Source: a virus
Length of the DNA: 20,499 nt
Strand: one strand, 5' to 3'
IMG/VR virus record: IMGVR_UViG_3300012936_000242
Location: 1 to 20,499 of that record
Shown: piece after piece, positions 1 through 8,575 of the stretch
Numbering within the stretch: the stretch's first letter is position 1
How the letters are laid out: each line of letters begins with the position of its first letter
The notes under the pieces: model-generated
The model's input: the letters and a program-made list of their open reading frames with translations, nothing else
What the model was told of the DNA's origin: nothing
Databases searched by the model: none
Program-made: the position numbers and the translations under genes

Positions 1-39
1 ACTCTTTCCGAATTTTGAGAAGTCTTCTTTTTCTTTCAT
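1..39 (-). CDS. 5' end of an unidentified gene, cut by the window edge
   Basis: An ATG at 39-37 overlaps the TGA stop of the upstream exonuclease gene in an ATGA arrangement, which suggests translational coupling. An AAGG-type ribosome site lies just upstream. Thirteen codons are visible before the window ends, reading MKEKEDFSKFGKS. The short lysine/glutamate-rich start fits a phage replication-module gene, and a replicative helicase would be a natural neighbour here, but thirteen residues cannot establish that. Confidence 0.5.
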   Translation of the reverse strand, partial: MKEKEDFSKFGKS

Positions 40-1016
40 TGACCTTCTTCTGTCTTACTTTCTAAGATTATTGTATTGAACTTGCGATATAGGCAATCCA
101 AATTCACATCGCCAAATCCGTCCTGGAACATCATCATTCTAAGTTCTGTTTTGTTAAACTCAGGCACCCACTCATTGAGAGTGTGTGTGATTCTTCTTGT
201 CATTTGGACAGACATATTTGGATTACTTAATTGCATTATTTTATAATTTTGCCTTATTAGGTCCAAATTGTCAAGTACTTTCTCGTATGTTTTAATCTTA
301 GAGTCCAGATTGCTTTGAGAATACTCTTCCAAGTCAGATATTAAATAGTCTGCATCTTCAGATAAAAACGGAAATGCCTTAGCAACCTTTTTAAGTCCCA
401 ATCCCATGACACCTGGAAGGTTGTCGGATTTATCCCCTACGATAGAACGAACTAAAGCAAAGTTTCTGGGGTGTAATTCTGTGGTCTCAAGGATCCTGTT
501 TACATTTAGGACCTCGTCTTGTACTGGTCTAAAGAGAAGAGTTTCTTCGTTTAGTAATTGTATAAAATCTTTATCACTAGAAACGATCACCTTTTGCCAA
601 CCGTTATATACAGGAGACTGACTTATAAAAGAAATAACGTCATCTGCTTCCACACCATCTTCTCTAAACTGGATCATCGGTGTGCAGTTGATATATTCTA
701 TTGTTCTTGCTTGTTGCCAAATCTTATTTTGCTCTGTCTCTGCAAAAGAAAGATTGTTTGCAAATCGATTAAGTTTAGGAGGTTTTCTTCCTTCTTTATA
801 GTTCTTGTTAATCGCTCTCCTCTTTTGAGAACCACCAGCACCGTCCCACACAATCACAAACTCATCTGGTTGAACTTGTCTGCATAACTTGTTCATGATC
901 TTCATAAAACCGGTCACACCGCCCACGGGGTCTCCGTTTGGAGTCAACGAGGGGTTTACTATATAAGACCTCATAAACTGGTTTTGAGCGTCAACTATCA
1001 TAAGTCTTTTGTTCAT
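36..1016 (-). CDS. 5'-3' exonuclease, T4 RNase H / FEN-1 family
   Basis: This 326-aa protein is a flap/5'-nuclease that would remove RNA primers and 5' flaps from lagging-strand fragments. The metal-binding acidic residues are in family order: D9 (IVDAQN), D58 (VWDG), E123/D125/D126 (GVEADD), D148/D150 (SSDKD) and D195/D198 (GDKSDN). The last pair opens the helix-hairpin-helix DNA-binding segment GDKSDNLPGVMGLGLKKV at about 194-211. T4 RNase H is 305 aa, so the length fits. No separate 3'-5' exonuclease or polymerase domain is present. The start at 1016 has a good AAGGAGAG site. The gene directly follows a strong terminator after uvsX and has no promoter in the short gap, so it probably depends on read-through. 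Family assignment is firm; substrate preference is inferred. Confidence 0.92.
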   Translation of the reverse strand: MNKRLMIVDAQNQFMRSYIVNPSLTPNGDPVGGVTGFMKIMNKLCRQVQPDEFVIVWDGAGGSQKRRAINKNYKEGRKPPKLNRFANNLSFAETEQNKIWQQARTIEYINCTPMIQFREDGVEADDVISFISQSPVYNGWQKVIVSSDKDFIQLLNEETLLFRPVQDEVLNVNRILETTELHPRNFALVRSIVGDKSDNLPGVMGLGLKKVAKAFPFLSEDADYLISDLEEYSQSNLDSKIKTYEKVLDNLDLIRQNYKIMQLSNPNMSVQMTRRITHTLNEWVPEFNKTELRMMMFQDGFGDVNLDCLYRKFNTIILESKTEEGQ

Positions 1017-1094: not shown

Positions 1095-2240
1095 TCAGTC
1101 TTCAGCGGGAGGGTCGCTATTGTCTTGATCATAAAAATCTGATGCCTTACCTGTTCTTTCACTGAACTTCATAATAACATCATCATCCATAATTGTCAAG
1201 ACTCTTTTCTTAAATCTTTCATCTTCTAACTTTCGCAACCAATGCGCTCTTTGAAACTTTTCTTCAGTTCCATCTTCATGAACTAAAGAGTACCATGCGC
1301 CTGACTGTTTTAGATTTTCTGATATTTGAATTGCGTCAAACCAACTTTCTTTGTCTTGAACACCAACTGTATCAGTATCACCCCAAAGAATCTTAAAGTT
1401 GCACATTCTACCTGTGGAACCGAAGCGGGACTTTTCAATCTTGCACTTCACCTCAGACCCAATCCTAAAACCATTTTCATCTAAAACAAAAGATGCCTTT
1501 GCCTTTCTTCCTGTCAACCAAACCCTCAAAGAATAAGAGTAAGGAAGAGTCTTGCCACCAGGTGTCATATATGGTGTGGTCAATGCTTCTGATGGAGACC
1601 TTGTGATGTTAGTCTTTAACTGATTTAATACTAACAAAGTTGCACCAGCATTTGCAATTGGTTGTACCAATTTTGGCATACCCTTTGATAAAACTCTTGC
1701 CTTCATTGCCATTGAAGACTGAGGGTTGTAATCCGACTCTAGGTCATGCTCAGAAGGAGTAAGAGCAAGAGAGTCCCAAATGAATAACCATTTTTCTGGC
1801 ATTTTCAAAAGATTCTCTATCGTCTCCATCACCATCTCTACTGAAGTTGCCTGGACATAGATTAAACCCTTGTCTTCATCATCAACATCACAACCCGCTC
1901 TCCTAAGAAAGTCAGGGTCAATAGCAGACTCGGAGTCAAAATACGCAACCCTGCATCCCATCTTTTGAGCATTGGCAGCGACTTGTGCTGCCATGAAAGA
2001 CTTTCCTGTTGCCTCTAATCCAGCAATTTCAGAAATCTTTCCTACAGGGATTCCAGCGTACCTACCCTTGCAGATAATAGAGTCCAACCATCGGGATCCA
2101 GTAGGTATCCACTCTTTCACCTCAGTTGGATTCTCTTCTCCAAGGTTGTAAGCAACAACACCTCCAACAGACTTGTTCAAAGAAGAAATAATATCCTTGG
2201 TTGATAAGTTACCTGTTTTTAATTTAGTTACCTTTTTCAT
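1095..2240 (-). CDS. uvsX: UvsX/RecA-like recombinase
   Basis: A 381-aa strand-exchange ATPase for recombination-dependent replication and repair, expected to work with the gp32-like protein encoded just upstream. The Walker A motif is GLEATGKS (74-81). The RecA-type catalytic glutamate lies in FDSESAIDP (E104). Walker B is WLFIWDS (D156). The L2/NQ segment is LVLNQLKTNI (N206-Q207), followed by TPGGKTLPYSYSLRVWL (226-242), which matches the RecA core. Length is close to T4 UvsX (about 390 aa). The start lies 5 nt past the gp32 stop with TTAGGA as a short-spaced ribosome site, so the two genes share an mRNA. A promoter-like sequence sits inside the gene at 1171-1199 and a strong terminator follows at 1032-1070. 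Confidence 0.95.
   Translation of the reverse strand: MKKVTKLKTGNLSTKDIISSLNKSVGGVVAYNLGEENPTEVKEWIPTGSRWLDSIICKGRYAGIPVGKISEIAGLEATGKSFMAAQVAANAQKMGCRVAYFDSESAIDPDFLRRAGCDVDDEDKGLIYVQATSVEMVMETIENLLKMPEKWLFIWDSLALTPSEHDLESDYNPQSSMAMKARVLSKGMPKLVQPIANAGATLLVLNQLKTNITRSPSEALTTPYMTPGGKTLPYSYSLRVWLTGRKAKASFVLDENGFRIGSEVKCKIEKSRFGSTGRMCNFKILWGDTDTVGVQDKESWFDAIQISENLKQSGAWYSLVHEDGTEEKFQRAHWLRKLEDERFKKRVLTIMDDDVIMKFSERTGKASDFYDQDNSDPPAED
1171..1199 (-). promoter_or_regulatory. Possible internal sigma70-type promoter within uvsX
   Basis: TTGACA (1199-1194), a 17-bp spacer and TATTAT (1176-1171) match the spacing of the four intergenic promoters in this window. It lies in coding sequence, about 155 nt before the exonuclease gene but upstream of the terminator at 1032-1070. 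The hexamer match is good, but coding constraint could explain it. Confidence 0.35.
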
Positions 2241-2245
2241 CTATC

Positions 2246-3016
2246 CTAACTCAATAACTCGTTAAATGCCTGCTCTACAGCAGACGCTTCAGTTGTAGCG
2301 GTTGTAGTTGTAGTGGTGTTTGTGCCACCATACTTTTCAACCTCATTGTTCCCGGTTTCTCCAGAGAGATGTTGGTCCAACAACACTTGGACTTCCTCGG
2401 TTGTCTTTCTCTCAAAGACTGTATCGATGTCTGGAACTGTCTCTAGTAGTTCCGCACAACGTTCGTCGCCACCGATTGCATCATCACAAAGCACGGACTT
2501 ACGAGGACGGGGGCGAATATCGGTTGTTGGGAAAGAAGCACCAGGTGCCTTTCCGTAAAGCAACTTTAAATCATTTCCGTCTTCTGGATCCGTGATGTCA
2601 CCATAGTCAGGGTCTAGCACGATACCTAGCAACTTTTGATATGCCAACTTTCCATAACCCCACACTCGTACGCCTTCACCCTCTTCGCCCCGTACAAGTA
2701 CCGGTGAAAAGAATCGCTGCTTGGCAAACATATCCTTTGCCATCTTTTTACTGTCCTCTGTGCCCTCATCCCACAACTGACTTGCGAAACTGCACACAGG
2801 GCATTCATCTCCGAAGTTTCGTTTTGGACATAAGAAACTTTGATTTCCTACTCCGTAGTGAAAAAACTTCTCCTTAAAGGGGTCTCCATCTGGAGTTGGG
2901 AGAATACGAATATTGTTTTCTCCTTCTGATGGACGCCAGAAAGCGTTGTTTTTCTTGTCACCCTTGCCGTTAAGGGTATCTAACTTTTGGCGCATCTTAT
3001 CTAAATTTAGTGCCAT
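2246..3016 (-). CDS. Single-stranded DNA-binding protein, T4 gp32-like
   Basis: A 256-aa protein that would coat ssDNA and organise replication and recombination proteins. The T4 gp32 zinc-site layout is visible: H53, C63, C72 and C75 in FFHYGVGN...FLCPKRNFGDECPVC, giving H-x9-C-x8-C-x2-C against H-x12-C-x9-C-x2-C in T4. The N-terminus (LNLDKMRQKLDTL) is basic/helical, as expected for the cooperativity domain. A Thr-rich linker (about 228-240) is followed by a terminal peptide, VEQAFNELLS, in the position of the partner-binding tail. It is shorter than T4 gp32 (301 aa). The start has a perfect AGGAGGT site 9 nt upstream. The gene is first in a transcript from the promoter at 3099-3127 and is followed by uvsX. 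Confidence 0.9.
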   Translation of the reverse strand: MALNLDKMRQKLDTLNGKGDKKNNAFWRPSEGENNIRILPTPDGDPFKEKFFHYGVGNQSFLCPKRNFGDECPVCSFASQLWDEGTEDSKKMAKDMFAKQRFFSPVLVRGEEGEGVRVWGYGKLAYQKLLGIVLDPDYGDITDPEDGNDLKLLYGKAPGASFPTTDIRPRPRKSVLCDDAIGGDERCAELLETVPDIDTVFERKTTEEVQVLLDQHLSGETGNNEVEKYGGTNTTTTTTATTEASAVEQAFNELLS

Positions 3017-3167: not shown

Positions 3168-4301
3168 CTACTTTTCAGTATTCCAACCATCCTTGGGGAT
3201 TCTGGTTGAAAACTTACCAGCACGACCCTTCTTCACTTCGTAGAAACCTCGCTCCAGTGGAACGCGACCATTGGACACGTCCAACTTTTGAGGACCCAGA
3301 AAAATACGATCAATCAAATGGGTGTTTCGCTTCAAGAGCGGTGATGAATTCGCAAGATTAATCTCCTCTATCATCTTCTTTCGCGACGCATCCAGGTCTG
3401 AAAAATCCTTACCAATGGTATCATTAGACCATATGATTAGTACAGAAGAGTCTTGCTCATTCTGGGTCTTCACCCTGAATGCATTTCCTGTCGTATTTGG
3501 AAACACATGCTTCTGATGACCTAACTTCAAAATATTAGTTTCAGGAAAAGTCACCTTGAACTTCCCATTGACCTTTTCCCACTTCACCGACATGTTATCA
3601 GGAATGTTTTTGTTGGCGAAATCCGAAAACTTATCCACAATCTCATCTGAGTTATAGTTCTCCAATTTGCCCGGAAGTTTTACTAGAAACGTTTTCACAA
3701 CACGTTTTGCCTCGGATTTAGTCCACCCATAGGTTTCCGCAGTAAAATTATTTAACCTCTCCTCAACAAACTTTGGATTAGTTTGATAAAGTTTATCGAA
3801 GTCCTCTCCATCAAAATCGGGAACAAGACCTGGGAGACTACCCCTCCTGATTCCATCTAGTACCAGTGCCGCATCATACTTGTTGTTTCCCTTCGAAGGA
3901 AGGGGTTCATGGTTGTTGCACTCGATCTGGTATCTTATTCTCTCGGCAGCGTTCTCGAATTGCACAACCTCTACGTCAACAAATTTAAATTCGTTTTTAC
4001 TAGGGTACTTTTTTGCCAAATTTTTGATTGCTGCAAGACGGTGCAATCCATCGATGGGTTTGTAGACTGTTTGACCAAACTGATTTTCTCCATCCACTTC
4101 TACGCTGATGGGGATTCGCTGACCTTGCTCAAAGATAGACTCCTGTATCGCAGGGACGTGCGAAGTTACTTTGCCTCCTTGACGAATTTGTGATCTTACC
4201 TTGTTGCCAAAGTCAATTTGATCCGTTGTGATTTGCTTGACGTTTTTCTTGCGCCATTGTGAGTCTCCCAAGAGACGTTTAAAATACTGTTCCTTATTCA
4301 T
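3168..4301 (-). CDS. ParB/sulfiredoxin-fold N-terminal domain protein with unknown C-terminus
   Basis: A 377-aa protein. Residues about 25-150 look like a ParB-type domain: IPISVEV, then KPIDGLHRLAAIKNL (81-95) in the position of the ParB D/E-G-x-x-R motif, then VDVEVVQFENAAERIRYQIECNN and PLPSKGNNKYDAALVL, which resemble the ParB 'eNlqR..ls..E.A' region. The C-terminal 220 residues are not recognised. Such domains occur in partition proteins, nucleases and phage proteins paired with methyltransferases. I chose the ATG at 4301 over the one at 4337: an AAAGGAAAAG ribosome site precedes it, and the upstream ATG has no such site and is followed by a hairpin. The gene has its own promoter overlapping the methyltransferase 3' end. 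Enzymatic activity is not established. Confidence 0.72.
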   Translation of the reverse strand: MNKEQYFKRLLGDSQWRKKNVKQITTDQIDFGNKVRSQIRQGGKVTSHVPAIQESIFEQGQRIPISVEVDGENQFGQTVYKPIDGLHRLAAIKNLAKKYPSKNEFKFVDVEVVQFENAAERIRYQIECNNHEPLPSKGNNKYDAALVLDGIRRGSLPGLVPDFDGEDFDKLYQTNPKFVEERLNNFTAETYGWTKSEAKRVVKTFLVKLPGKLENYNSDEIVDKFSDFANKNIPDNMSVKWEKVNGKFKVTFPETNILKLGHQKHVFPNTTGNAFRVKTQNEQDSSVLIIWSNDTIGKDFSDLDASRKKMIEEINLANSSPLLKRNTHLIDRIFLGPQKLDVSNGRVPLERGFYEVKKGRAGKFSTRIPKDGWNTEK

Positions 4302-4321
4302 AATAAGTAACTTTTCCTTTC

Positions 4322-4364
4322 GCGACCTGGGTCGCATGTTAGTGAGACTACTTTGTGTAGTCTC
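4322..4364 (-). promoter_or_regulatory. Two inverted repeats in the leader of the ParB-like gene
   Basis: GAGACTAC and GTAGTCTC (4344-4364) form an 8-bp stem with a 5-nt loop. It starts about 7 nt after the predicted transcription start and has no U-run after it. GCGAC and GTCGC (4322-4335, CTGG loop) form a second stem that separates the ATG at 4337 from the better-placed ATG at 4301. They could act as DNA operators for a repressor, including the ParB-like protein itself, or as mRNA structure controlling translation. Confidence 0.5.
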
Positions 4365-4377
4365 GAAATATGTTATT

Positions 4378-4406
4378 ACTATATCAGAAGTTTTTCATTC
4401 TGTCAA
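4378..4406 (-). promoter_or_regulatory. Sigma70-type promoter for the ParB-like gene
   Basis: TTGACA (4406-4401), a 17-bp spacer and TATAGT (4383-4378), with a TG one base before the -10 (extended -10). Hexamers and spacing match the gp32 promoter exactly. It overlaps the last codons of the methyltransferase gene and predicts a start near 4371 and a leader of about 70 nt with two hairpins. Confidence 0.8.
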
Positions 4407-5256
4407 TGGTTTTTTTATAAAAATCTTCATCCACCTCGCAACCAAGGAAATTACGTCCAGTGTTGCGTGATGCAAGTGCAGTGGTGCCAGACCCAAGAAA
4501 GGGATCTAGAACAACTTCACCCTCGCTTGAATGCTTCTTTATTAGGTCTTCAAACAATAACAAACTTTTTTGCGTTGGGTGAAACCTGTCCTTGCCCGAA
4601 TAAACAGGATATTCATAAATCCCATTGTCATACTTGCTATTGAATGTTGGTTTGCCACCCTTGACTGCGGAGATGGCAATCTCTCGGGCATTAGTAAGAT
4701 AGTTTACATTACTGTTCCTTGGTTGTGGATTCGTCTTTATCCACTCGATAAACCTCAGTTGCTTGAATTTGGCAGACTCATATATTGTTTTTAAGTCTGA
4801 AATCTTCCAAAGGTCAAAAAAGATTATTGCAGTGCCGCCTTTTCTGAGGACCCTATAGAATTCCTGCACAAATTCACTTAACATATCAATAGTGAAATCA
4901 GTGTCCCAGTCACCAAAATCAGTTTGGACGGCATACTTTGTACCATAAATCGAACCATATTTTAGATAGTCGTGCCTCATTTTAGACATCGCTTTCGGGC
5001 GGTCTGAGATCTCACTATTACCAAAAAATCTATCCCAATCCTTCTTGTCTCTGTAAGACACCCACTGTGCTTCGGTCTTCATTGGAACTGCGCCTGGAGT
5101 GTTTTGTCTCTCCACCAACTTAACCCATCGGTCCATGCCACTGTCCTGCGATGTAATATATGGAGGATCTGTCAATATCAAATCTATAGAGTTTGACTCT
5201 ATTCCCTTTAGATACCGGAGTCCTTCTTCGTTTTCTATCTTTTGCTCAGTGTTCAT
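4384..5256 (-). CDS. Beta-class DNA methyltransferase (adenine-N6 or cytosine-N4)
   Basis: A 290-aa SAM-dependent DNA amino-methyltransferase. Catalytic motif IV is TDPPYI (29-34). The HPTQKS element (about 226-231) and the SAM-binding motif I, LDPFLGSGTTALA (about 250-262), lie near the C-terminus. The order IV, target recognition region, X, I defines the beta class. A DPPY motif occurs in both N6-adenine and N4-cytosine enzymes, so the base cannot be called. Residues about 35-105 form an inserted region that probably contributes to sequence recognition. The gene has its own promoter at 5290-5318 with only a weak AAGG ribosome site. It is followed by the ParB-like gene, a pairing familiar in phages. 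No restriction nuclease is recognised nearby, so self-protection against host restriction or DNA marking is the likely role. Confidence 0.93.
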   Translation of the reverse strand: MNTEQKIENEEGLRYLKGIESNSIDLILTDPPYITSQDSGMDRWVKLVERQNTPGAVPMKTEAQWVSYRDKKDWDRFFGNSEISDRPKAMSKMRHDYLKYGSIYGTKYAVQTDFGDWDTDFTIDMLSEFVQEFYRVLRKGGTAIIFFDLWKISDLKTIYESAKFKQLRFIEWIKTNPQPRNSNVNYLTNAREIAISAVKGGKPTFNSKYDNGIYEYPVYSGKDRFHPTQKSLLLFEDLIKKHSSEGEVVLDPFLGSGTTALASRNTGRNFLGCEVDEDFYKKTIDRMKNF

Positions 5257-5326: not shown

Positions 5327-6160
5327 TTAACTTTTTTCTTGAATCTGAGAAGAGTAATAAATTCCATATGTTATAATCTCTTCGTATGAAGTTTCATAGA
5401 TTCCATAACTTGCCCTGAGTTTTCCTGAGATCTTAGACTTCACCATATTTACAATGTCTCTATACAGCGTGCTCTGGTTTTCCAACACCTCTTTGGGAAC
5501 TCCAAAGTAGTATCTTATCTCTCTTACTTCATCCAGAGGATAAAAGAGAGTCTCACTTTTTTGATCAATTATTGTCCCGAAGGTACATATCCTGGCAGTA
5601 TCAGACTGAGAAGAGAAGGTATCTGTGACTGATTCTGAATTTTCAAAAACATTCAAAAGATGAATCGTGCTCACCAAGAATTGATTCAAACTTTGGAAAT
5701 ATTTTAAAATTGGGACATCACCTAACATCTTTTCAATGGATTGGTTTTGAACCATGAACATCTTCTTGAAGAGACCAGATCTAGCATATTGCTGTAAGAC
5801 ATTTCTTACCACCCTTTCTTGCAACTGTTTCTTCTCACTCAACAGTTCAATCTCTGGTTCAATATATAGTATGGTTGTTGGGATGTTCTTGTTGTGTATT
5901 TGTTGCAACAACCTAAGAGAAGCACCAGACACAATGCTCGCACCACTCAAGATAAATAAGACCTCACCCTTCAGACCCTTAAAGAAGTTTCCGGTCTTTG
6001 GGTTAAACTCTTCGTACTCTTCCGGTTCTTGCAGGTCTGGCAAAGAATAGCATCTTTTGCCCTCAATGTTACGATCAATTTTATAGATATTGTACTGAGG
6101 GTAGTTTCCGAAATGATCTGCTATATTGCATCCCACTTTTCCTAATCCAATTATATTCAT
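5327..6160 (-). CDS. Divergent FtsZ/tubulin-fold protein
   Basis: A 277-aa protein that I align by eye to FtsZ along most of its length. MNIIGLGKVGCNIADHF (1-17) matches the FtsZ T1 loop pattern G-x-G-x-x-G-x-N. LFILSGASIVSGASLRLLQQI (68-88) stands where FtsZ has the GGGTGTG signature, but the glycines and threonine are mostly replaced. PTTILYIEPE, then KKQLQERVVRNVLQQY, SIEKMLGDVPILKYFQSLNQFL and a final strand-rich segment (ASYGIYETSYEEIITYGIYYS) follow FtsZ strand S5, helix H5, helix H7 and C-terminal strands. FtsZ is about 380 aa, so this is a compact version. The T7 catalytic loop is not evident, so GTP hydrolysis is doubtful. It overlaps polA by ATGA, implying coupled translation. It could form or cap filaments, interfere with host FtsZ, or serve replication. 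A plain NAD-binding Rossmann protein is the alternative. Confidence 0.6.
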   Translation of the reverse strand: MNIIGLGKVGCNIADHFGNYPQYNIYKIDRNIEGKRCYSLPDLQEPEEYEEFNPKTGNFFKGLKGEVLFILSGASIVSGASLRLLQQIHNKNIPTTILYIEPEIELLSEKKQLQERVVRNVLQQYARSGLFKKMFMVQNQSIEKMLGDVPILKYFQSLNQFLVSTIHLLNVFENSESVTDTFSSQSDTARICTFGTIIDQKSETLFYPLDEVREIRYYFGVPKEVLENQSTLYRDIVNMVKSKISGKLRASYGIYETSYEEIITYGIYYSSQIQEKS

Positions 6161-7350
6161 GCTACTTTAATATCCCTCATATCTCCGAAGTCTTTTCCTA
6201 TCTTAATATTTGTCTTGAAGATTCCTAGTCTAGTTTTCTCAAACATCTTCATCATTGGTACCAACAAGTGTTTGTCATCCTTATCAAAGTCTACAATTAC
6301 TGAGTCATGCAATGTGAATGCAATGTTTGACCTCTTTCCTTTTAACATTTCTCTTATCTTAAAAGTATTTTCAAGCACTATATCATTTGTTGTAGATTGA
6401 ATCAAGTAATTTATGCAATGTTTTTCATCTGACTGAACAACCCTGCCAAAAGGATTCTTAATTAGGTGTCCATTCCAAAACTTGTTTTTAAGTTCCTTTC
6501 TGTTATACAACCTCTCAAGGTCCGGATCATTTGATTCTGGATTGTACAACCAGGCGAAGAACTTTTCTTTCATCTGTTCCCTTGTTAGACTACCCTTTGC
6601 AACGTGGGTGACATTCCATTCGTGAATATCTTCCTTAATATCCCTTTTGCCCAATAGTGCAAGAAAGGTTCTTATCTCCGCAGAATTGAAATCCAATTCT
6701 ACAAACACATCATTGTTTGGTTTAAGCACACTCCTGTATTCTTTGTTAAGGTTTAAGACCGGGAATGTTCCCTTCTTTGTTGTTAGTCTGCCTGTCCTTG
6801 ACCCAAACACATTCAAATCTACTCTTTTCTCAACCCTCTCTAGTCTTGAAAGAAACTCCCTCACTCTGGTCTTGTGTCGTAACGGATAAAGACTGGTTGG
6901 GTCTAGATTCAATTCTTGATTTGAAACCTCTTCCAACATCACATGAACATTCTTTAAAAGTTCATAGTTCTCTGGTTTTGCTTGTCGAAAGACTGACTTA
7001 CAGATCTCTTCTTTGACCAAGAAGTATTCTCTCATAAGATTTTCAGGAATCAAATCAAAAAAACAATTTGTATCAAGACACACTCGTGCTGCCTTGATCG
7101 ACCGCATGTGCGCTCTTAGTTTTTGATTCATGATCTCGAACTGGTCTTTAAGGTTTTCAGGACAGCACTCCTCTAGAGTCTTGCCCCCTGACCAGACCCA
7201 GGCATACTCACACTCAAGGTCTGATAATAAAGAAGAGTGTTTCCAGGTGCCATATTTTATTGAAGTGTCTATTTCTGACATGCTGGTCAGGTCTTTGTTG
7301 ATGAAAACAGACTCACATCCGGTCTTCTCATCGACTACTTGTAATATCAT
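6157..7350 (-). CDS. polA: Short family-A DNA polymerase without a proofreading domain
   Basis: A 397-aa Pol I-type polymerase core. FGSRTGRLT (182-190) matches the Pol I TGRLSS region. Motif A is LDFNSAEIRTF with catalytic D220. Motif B is R257-x3-K261-x3-F265-x3-Y269, the spacing of E. coli R754, K758, F762 and Y766. NYLIQSTTNDIV (314-325) is the conserved helix before motif C, which is FTLHDSV with D349; HDS replaces the usual HDE, as in various phage enzymes. Residues 1-150 look like thumb and linker. No 3'-5' exonuclease motifs are seen, so proofreading must come from another protein or be absent. The 37 residues between motif A D220 and R257 are fewer than in Pol I. A strong promoter and AGGA site precede the gene, and it overlaps the FtsZ-like gene by 4 nt. 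Confidence 0.9.
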   Translation of the reverse strand: MILQVVDEKTGCESVFINKDLTSMSEIDTSIKYGTWKHSSLLSDLECEYAWVWSGGKTLEECCPENLKDQFEIMNQKLRAHMRSIKAARVCLDTNCFFDLIPENLMREYFLVKEEICKSVFRQAKPENYELLKNVHVMLEEVSNQELNLDPTSLYPLRHKTRVREFLSRLERVEKRVDLNVFGSRTGRLTTKKGTFPVLNLNKEYRSVLKPNNDVFVELDFNSAEIRTFLALLGKRDIKEDIHEWNVTHVAKGSLTREQMKEKFFAWLYNPESNDPDLERLYNRKELKNKFWNGHLIKNPFGRVVQSDEKHCINYLIQSTTNDIVLENTFKIREMLKGKRSNIAFTLHDSVIVDFDKDDKHLLVPMMKMFEKTRLGIFKTNIKIGKDFGDMRDIKVA

Positions 7351-7357
7351 GAAGATC

Positions 7358-8575
7358 CTATTTTTTGTGTATAGTTAGTATTATATGATTTAATTTCTGC
7401 GGTGTAAAGAGATTTCTCATGTTTTTTGCAAAAATGTTTAAATCATAGTTGACATTCTTGAGTGCTTCATTTAGATGATTTAAGGCGACTTCCAACCCAT
7501 ATCTGCTTTCCATCTTCATACACTTGCTTATTATATTATCGAAACTTTTTTGATTTACTTCGTTCATCAAATTAGTCTCCATCAACCTTATTTTTAGCAA
7601 AACTTCCATCCAAAATTGAGTGTCATACCCGTCTGATGGGTCTACAAGAGGTTGGCGACGATAGGACCATTCCTCTATTTGCCCTGATTCTGTGGTCTTT
7701 GTTTTTCTAAAGAAAGGTCTGTAGGATACAAACTGATTATAAATATAAGGCAAGACATTTCTTAGGAGATCCATATCTTCCAAGTGGGTCTTCATAAAAA
7801 ACTTTTCAAAAAAGTTGCCGCCACTGGGGGAGAGACTAATCCCAGACGGTGCGCCATAGGGAGATAAATTACTAGAATTCAAATTTGCCACCAAAGTCCA
7901 TGGGGCGTTCCTATCTAAACGAAAACCAAACTGTGCACACTTATGTGCAAATACCCTAAACTGTGGTGAAGAGAGCATATCAATTTTTAACTTTTCTTCA
8001 TTCTTCAGGTTCCTCTTTAAGGTCAAAACAAGACCCGAAACATTACTAGGAGTCTTTTTTGACAACAAAAGACCCGTCTTTGTCATCACAATCTTTTCCT
8101 GAGATTCTTTTAATACCTGGAAAAACACTTTCACAAAATCACCAAAGTCCCTAATGCTACCACCGAACCTCTCAATACAAGCGTTCAGGATCTTAAATTT
8201 TGCGTTCTCAACATAGGACGCATGATGTCCAGAGAAGTCCGTCCATCCTGATGTGGGATTCAAACTTTCCATACCAAGCACAGGTTGCAACGCTCTCTTG
8301 GCAATCAAAGTTTCATAATCTCTTTTCAGATCCCTAAACGCTCTTGCAACAAAGTTGATAACATACACGTTCGTACTACCTCTAATGTGGGTAAGAGTGC
8401 CGGCATCATCGATCATAAGTCTCGCAGCGTTGGACAATCTATCGACCTTGCCGTACATTTGATGTTCACCAGAAAGATCAAGCGGCGAAGGGACACTATC
8501 TGGGAAACCTTGTTGTTCCACCGCTCGCTTGATATCATACTGGTCTTTTAGTTTAAAATCTCTGAAGTCCCTCAT
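7358..8575 (-). CDS. Unidentified 405-aa protein, probable virion or tail-associated
   Basis: I do not recognise the family. The 405-aa sequence is mixed alpha/beta with no signal peptide or membrane segment. It starts with a charged MRDFRDFKLKDQYDIKRAV, carries a Gly/Ser/Pro-rich stretch near 240-255, and ends with amphipathic helices (about 330-400). It starts 4 nt after the end of the 1137-aa hub-like gene, with AGGAGG 10 nt upstream of its ATG, so it is the last gene of the tail cluster. The polA promoter lies inside its 3' end, which supports grouping it with the late genes rather than with polA. A structural or assembly role is inferred from position alone. Confidence 0.6.
   Translation of the reverse strand: MRDFRDFKLKDQYDIKRAVEQQGFPDSVPSPLDLSGEHQMYGKVDRLSNAARLMIDDAGTLTHIRGSTNVYVINFVARAFRDLKRDYETLIAKRALQPVLGMESLNPTSGWTDFSGHHASYVENAKFKILNACIERFGGSIRDFGDFVKVFFQVLKESQEKIVMTKTGLLLSKKTPSNVSGLVLTLKRNLKNEEKLKIDMLSSPQFRVFAHKCAQFGFRLDRNAPWTLVANLNSSNLSPYGAPSGISLSPSGGNFFEKFFMKTHLEDMDLLRNVLPYIYNQFVSYRPFFRKTKTTESGQIEEWSYRRQPLVDPSDGYDTQFWMEVLLKIRLMETNLMNEVNQKSFDNIISKCMKMESRYGLEVALNHLNEALKNVNYDLNIFAKNMRNLFTPQKLNHIILTIHKK
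7380..7408 (-). promoter_or_regulatory. Strong sigma70-type promoter for polA and the FtsZ-like gene
   Basis: TTTACA (7408-7403), a 17-bp spacer and a perfect TATAAT (7385-7380). It overlaps the 3' end of the 405-aa gene and predicts a start near 7373 with a leader of about 22 nt holding AGGA before the polA ATG. It marks the boundary between the tail genes and the replication genes. Confidence 0.85.

Follow-up and report, generated by a model that had tools for sequence, protein, structure and literature searches.

A compact protein of the tubulin/FtsZ superfamily encoded beside a divergent DNA polymerase in a phage replication block

The window, by which we mean the whole stretch of DNA analyzed (a virus contig of 20,499 bases), encodes a protein whose membership in the tubulin/FtsZ superfamily we regard as settled, and the family it represents is a new, divergent branch of that superfamily. 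Its gene adjoins that of a divergent family A DNA polymerase (PolA), and we propose with moderate confidence that the product serves the PolA/SSB recombination-replication module as an accessory or scaffold, with a tubulin fold that binds guanine nucleotide but forms no filaments. The minus strand of the window carries T4-like tail genes (sheath, tube and baseplate), followed by genes for a 405-residue protein, PolA, the FtsZ-like protein, a methyltransferase, a ParB-like protein, the single-strand DNA binding protein (SSB), UvsX and an exonuclease, as follows.

7358..8575, minus strand: 405-aa protein (u405) at the end of the tail gene block (AF2 model, pLDDT 89)
6157..7350, minus strand: divergent family A DNA polymerase, 397 aa, divPolA1-like (Pfam DNA_pol_A, E 8e-8; phrog_17)
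6157..6160, minus strand: ATGA, in which the polA stop overlaps the FtsZ-like start (read from the sequence)
5327..6160, minus strand: FtsZ/tubulin-fold protein, ORF of 277 aa (AF2 model, pLDDT 95.9; CetZ, TubZ, FtsZ and tubulin matches across residues 1-277)
4384..5256, minus strand: N6/N4 DNA methyltransferase, an insertion separating the FtsZ-like and SSB genes (PF01555, E 2e-33)
3168..4337, minus strand: ParB-like protein, inserted (phrog_1033, E 3e-5)
2246..3016, minus strand: single-strand DNA binding protein, gp32-like (phrog_1192, E 6e-27)
1095..2240, minus strand: UvsX-like recombinase (phrog_97, E 7e-58)
36..1016, minus strand: 5'-3' exonuclease (PF02739, E 3e-26)

A first-pass annotation of this DNA had described the 277-residue ORF, reading from 6160 to 5327 with its ATG overlapping the polA TGA, and the ORF is present as described. 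The FtsZ-like segments picked out at that stage are also real, the T1 segment GLGKVGCN corresponding to residues 5-12 and the C-terminal strands being found in the model; helix H5 terminates in YARSG, and the segment SIEKMLG...FQSLNQFL comprises H6 and the beginning of H7. Within the protein we distinguish the following features, for which residue statistics were taken over 194 distinct complete family members.

6122..6154, minus strand: T1 phosphate loop, residues 3-13, IIGLGKVGCNI (family version GLGxAGCNI)
5921..5947, minus strand: T4 position, residues 72-80, SGASIVSGA (family version G[SA]GxISG; shorter than the GGGTGTG of FtsZ)
5777..5797, minus strand: LQxYARS, invariant motif at the end of H5, residues 122-128 (residue statistics, 194 members)
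5744..5746, minus strand: N139, after strand S6 (equivalent of FtsZ N165 by hhalign; Asn in 94%)
5642..5710, minus strand: core helix H7, residues 151-173 (AF2 secondary structure; F155 and N159 at base-contact positions; invariant H167)
5591..5641, minus strand: loop replacing the T7 catalytic loop and helix H8, residues 174-190 (AF2 model without a helix; N.D..D in 0 of 194 members)
5330..5590, minus strand: C-terminal beta-alpha domain, residues 191-277 (AF2 model)

The structure of the FtsZ-like protein was predicted with AlphaFold2 (AF2) from an alignment of 85 family members, giving a mean pLDDT of 95.9 and an order of elements (S1-H1-S2-...-S6-H6-H7-C-terminal sheet) as expected for tubulins. 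A Foldseek search with this model returned 636 PDB matches at E<=0.001, the top ones being FtsZ and TubZ at E of about 1e-10 (5e-11 for FtsZ). Structural alignment with our in-house program VIA-align gave Z scores of 24.7 for CetZ, 23.6 for TubZ, 22.7 for FtsZ and about 22 for tubulins, these matches extending across 255-274 residues. At the level of the fold, the N-terminal Rossmann GTPase domain, the core helix H7 and the C-terminal beta-alpha domain are all present. The first-pass annotation had proposed an FtsZ/tubulin fold and had suggested a structure comparison, naming a model that lacked the Rossmann domain plus H7 as evidence to the contrary; the model and its matches contain both. 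A sequence signal to FtsZ is weak but present, and lies beyond chance. The family profile aligned to nine FtsZ sequences with an hhalign score of 23.7, whereas 40 column-shuffled controls scored at most 21.6 and the reversed profile 14.0; the alignment was centered on S6-H6-H7 rather than on the generic T1 loop. The curated cut-offs of Pfam PF00091 and NCBIfam TIGR00065 were not reached, the window protein itself having no match to either; weak matches were found for PF00091 in 5 of 27 members (best E 0.03) and for TIGR00065 in 8 of 85 (best E 0.009).

A potential concern with this assignment is that a plain NAD-binding Rossmann enzyme could imitate the T1 loop with its GxGxxG motif, and single members do show weak matches to TrkA_N and to saccharopine dehydrogenase. 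Such an origin is extremely improbable, and we consider it refuted. No NAD-binding family is matched with confidence, the commonest NCBIfam match across members is FtsZ, all 733 chains in the structural alignment have Z>=8, and the 50 best rows consist only of tubulin-superfamily chains or complexes, aligned at full length with H7 and the C-terminal domain included.

Relatives of the protein are encoded at more than 500 loci in IMG/VR (at least 545-570 of 600 scanned stretches). The window ORF alone has no match in Pfam or PHROGs, and no Pfam, PHROG or NCBIfam model exists for the family. Searching 50,697 phage records by tblastn gave no match for the window ORF or for a second member, no relative was confirmed among GTDB species genomes, and no solved structure was found by sequence profile. 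Nor did we find literature on an FtsZ-like family beside phage polA, within an incomplete open-access coverage. These results bear out the earlier suggestion that the family is an undescribed one.

The comparison with known members of the superfamily brings out both what has been kept and what has been lost. The full two-domain fold (Z 22.7-24.7) and the T1 loop are shared with FtsZ and CetZ, as are the Asn after S6 and the aromatic residue and Asn of H7 at guanine-contact positions. In contrast to FtsZ and CetZ, the phage protein has only 277 residues, is 10-14% identical to them, carries a T3/H3 segment about 15 residues shorter and a shortened T4 without Thr, and lacks T7/H8 and a disordered tail. 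TubZ, a protein of about 400 residues that hydrolyzes GTP and treadmills, shares the fold (Z 23.6) and is likewise encoded by a mobile element; the phage family differs from it in lacking T7 and in gene context. PhuZ of phage phiKZ, which builds a spindle, is also a phage-encoded tubulin fold, but the FtsZ-like family lacks T7 and adjoins polA, and no sequence relation to PhuZ was detectable beyond T1 (hhalign P 0.11, 28 columns only). The T4 of PhuZ is itself non-standard, reading GGASGSTIG, so that the earlier statement that known phage tubulins keep the signature was too strong. The best viral match among predicted structures was A0A6J5RW92 (E 2.4e-12), annotated as 'FtsZ cell division GTPase' of an uncultured Caudovirales phage; it differs in having 452 residues and shows 14% identity.

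The residue statistics are consistent with a guanine-nucleotide site of altered form. Residues G5, G7 and G10 of T1 are conserved in 98-100% of the 194 members. The replacement of GGGTGTG by SGASIVSGA noted previously is seen at residues 72-80, the T4 position; GGGTG occurs in none of the 194 members, nor is the T4 signature [SAG]GGTG[SAT]G found, and the GASIVSG of the window is among the poorer versions of the family motif G[SA]GxISG. By hhalign, N139, F155 and N159 align with FtsZ N165, F182 and N/D186, the positions at which FtsZ and tubulin structures make contact with guanine and stack on it. The window protein has the full set expected for guanine contact, namely an Asn following S6 and, on H7, an aromatic residue and an Asn or Asp. 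N159 is present in 94% of members, N139 and N159 are both Asn in 182 of 194, and position 155 is aromatic or His in 91%. The stretch from S2 to S4 that holds T3/H3 has 42 residues as compared to about 57 in E. coli FtsZ. The AF2 model lacks the H8 helix and has a loop of 16-17 residues in place of T7/H8. The absence of a T7 loop, reported at the outset for the window protein, extends to the family, with N-x-D-x-x-D missing from the window protein and from 194 distinct relatives. GTP hydrolysis by FtsZ and tubulin requires the T7 of the neighboring subunit, and because this is absent here, T7-type GTPase activity is unlikely, as judged from the sequences.

Both Asn residues are lost in 11 members. 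At T4 position 75, ten of these 11 pocket-less members have E or D, as compared to 2 of the 183 others, and D29 at the T2 position is kept in 27% of them versus 96% elsewhere. A maximum-likelihood tree requires about four changes to account for the loss, at least two of them forced by well-supported branches, indicating that the loss of the pocket has recurred. The pocket residues thus act as a unit, as would be expected if most members bind guanine nucleotide. Q123, Y125, R127 and S128 are kept in 100% of the pocket-less members and H167 in 10 of 11, and the PolA beside these members retains its catalytic motifs where complete. Because the pocket is lost as a unit while Q123, R127 and S128 stay invariant, nucleotide binding is not indispensable, and the indispensable part of the protein is not the nucleotide site. 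The earlier description of the GTPase signature as degenerate holds in part. Although the T4 signature is absent from 194 of 194 members, plain degeneration of the protein is improbable, given that most members retain both guanine-contact Asn residues and that the two are lost only together. The most conserved feature of the family is LQxYARS at the end of H5 together with H167 near the end of H7 (Q123 and R127 in 100%, and S128 and H167 in 99%, of the 194 members). From topology we place these residues at the bottom of the N-terminal domain, at the former T7/H8 site.

The gene is embedded in a block of fixed order, tail genes - u405 - polA - FtsZ-like - SSB - UvsX - exonuclease, at about 105 loci. 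When loci were fetched by PolA alone, the FtsZ-like gene lay downstream in all 75 new loci that included the relevant stretch; these loci came from the 80 top-scoring matches out of at least 595 and, at 38-64% identity, cover the closer PolA relatives. The coupling to DNA polymerase described in the first-pass annotation is thus found at all 75 of these PolA-selected loci. The start codon of the FtsZ-like gene overlaps the polA stop at 92 of 171 loci; at others, a small gene separates the two. SSB is the next family downstream in nearly all loci; a methyltransferase insert at the FtsZ-like/SSB site is found in 5 of 107 loci, and the ParB-like gene is found in none of the other loci compared. 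In the long relatives, which are 11 contigs of 147-204 kb, the FtsZ-like gene is single copy in all 11.

Several additional observations were made on genes of this block. Often, an ORF of about 103 residues (about 310 bases; KLVRDxIPEII...), by eye like an all-alpha NTP pyrophosphatase, separates polA from the FtsZ-like gene, as in L004, L040, L007 and others; it is inserted in 50 of 182 measured loci, and 6 of 9 measured pocket-less members have an insert of this size. At locus L003 (6380-8001) the gap of 1.6 kb between the two genes holds an ORF of 381 residues that is nucleotidyltransferase-like by eye. The u405 gene is conserved in 84 loci just before polA, and its AF2 model has no PDB fold match at E<=0.001. 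The possibility that u405 supplies the exonuclease half that PolA lacks was rejected, no known fold being found and the gene coming after the tail genes.

The polymerase of the window lacks an active exonuclease domain, and the HMM of its family matches divPolA1 of Flavobacterium phage immuto (E 2e-15); the family profile also matches Microcystis phage Mel-JY01 and a 484-kb uncultured phage. In immuto, divPolA1 is a PolA with a dead exonuclease that is accompanied by a regular polymerase (PMC11348598). The long relatives encode a DnaB-type helicase; no match to the gp45 clamp, no PolB and no second PolA were found in the 11 contigs, nor a separate PolA exonuclease above the cut-off. The absence of PolB and of a second PolA suggested that PolA was the only polymerase of these phages, but a PolC/DnaE-type polymerase is also present in 10 of the 11. 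Together, the divPolA1-like enzyme of the window and the PolC/DnaE-type polymerase of the long relatives extend the divPolA1 phages (PMC11348598) to a large uncultivated group.

The block of immuto, Mel-JY01 and the 484-kb phage has the order polA - X - SSB - UvsX - exonuclease - DnaB. It shares with the window phages a divergent PolA with a dead exonuclease, followed by SSB, UvsX, the 5'-3' exonuclease and DnaB, and a second, regular polymerase elsewhere in the genome. The FtsZ-like gene was absent from the stretches of immuto, Mel-JY01 and LR756508 that were read; in contrast to the window phages, their slot X is occupied by an unrelated family of 129-151 residues. As slot X differs in this way, only one side of the phage group has the FtsZ-like gene, which may have come to occupy the polA/SSB slot by non-homologous replacement. 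The slot gene was considered as a truncated FtsZ-like protein and rejected, there being no similarity. Members of the slot family (L418:11866-12252, L414:1346-1798 and L417:10224-10610) share the motif HRKKxxNTxYTINxLN and have no Pfam match over the cut-off, the L418 member being checked against PHROGs only; this family is itself a candidate polymerase accessory. A relation to Rhodothermus phage RM378 (split PolA, Far-T4) was rejected, the first 50 kb having no match to the FtsZ-like or PolA family and a weak one to the 5'-3' exonuclease as its sole family match.

Other roles for a protein of this fold have to be weighed against that of a replication accessory. An antagonist of host division, an idea that goes back to the first-pass annotation, would act as a dead subunit on host FtsZ, capping or poisoning protofilaments and stopping the Z ring. 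The FtsZ fold and the absence of T7, as a cap would require, fit such a role, but the phage inhibitors of FtsZ known to us are small proteins that are not known to have an FtsZ fold. FtsZ is often a phage target, as for lambda Kil, T7 gp0.4, P1 Icd and T5 Hdi (PMC3961180, PMC13423816, PMC11897509, PMC10714956). The gene lies in the replication block at every locus, however, and not among early host-takeover genes, and host FtsZ is conserved, yet the conserved surface of the family differs from an FtsZ-like end. The shortened T3/H3 and the missing T7/H8 argue against canonical end-to-end docking. We consider this role unlikely, and slightly more so a guanine-nucleotide enzyme or sensor (for GTP, dGTP or a modified form) that would adjust DNA synthesis with catalytic residues of its own, E47, [ED]50, R127 and H167. 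The acid at position 50, R127 and H167 are invariant, E47 stands at the T3 position, and the ORF resembling an NTP pyrophosphatase by eye often lies between polA and the FtsZ-like gene. That R127 and H167 persist where the pocket has been lost nonetheless argues against an essential nucleotide reaction, and we know of no tubulin-fold enzyme that catalyzes with its own residues in such a way.

A phage cytoskeleton similar to PhuZ or TubZ, in which filaments joined by a non-canonical interface would position or segregate replicating phage DNA, is a shade less probable again. It would agree with superfamily membership, with the high ranking of TubZ and of phage FtsZ-like proteins in the structure matches, with the location in the replication block and with the ParB-like neighbor in the window. 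That neighbor is found at no other locus, however, the T7 catalytic motif is missing in 194 of 194 members, and the loss of the pocket about four times with the gene kept is hard to reconcile with GTP-driven dynamics.

For the role that we favor, as an accessory or scaffold of the replication module, we suggest the following. A phage lineage with T4-like tails would have taken a compact tubulin/FtsZ relative into its replication-recombination module. Most members would bind GTP, GDP or another guanine nucleotide, as judged from their residues, and would neither hydrolyze it through T7 in trans nor assemble into protofilaments of the tubulin type. An interface would be formed, on the former T7/H8 side, by the invariant residues at the C-terminal ends of H5 (LQxYARS) and H7 (H167); the partner bound there would most likely be SSB or the co-translated PolA, and the nucleotide would stabilize or tune the protein and be dispensable in some lineages. 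Note that small phage operon partners need not work together. In a distance-correlation test, the partial correlation of the FtsZ-like protein was 0.14 with PolA, 0.16 with SSB and 0.26 with UvsX, so that co-evolution with PolA shows no excess over SSB or UvsX; our confidence in the mechanism is moderate because this test gave no support to PolA as the direct partner. We advance only tentatively the more specific reading that a tubulin-superfamily protein became an obligate accessory subunit or scaffold of a divergent phage polymerase, keeping guanine binding at first and later losing it in several lineages, with the fold used without filaments.

To our knowledge, the phage tubulins of described function (TubZ and PhuZ) are all filament-forming GTPases. 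The family described here would represent a widespread branch among phages in which the fold persists without its catalytic and filament-forming parts, at a fixed place in the replication block of many uncultivated viruses. The loss of the filament-making catalytic loop, with the nucleotide pocket retained, suggests recruitment for viral DNA replication rather than for filament building. The FtsZ-like protein may help explain how divPolA1 is controlled, and the natural occurrence of pocket-intact and pocket-less members makes it testable how a tubulin fold functions without GTP hydrolysis or polymerization.
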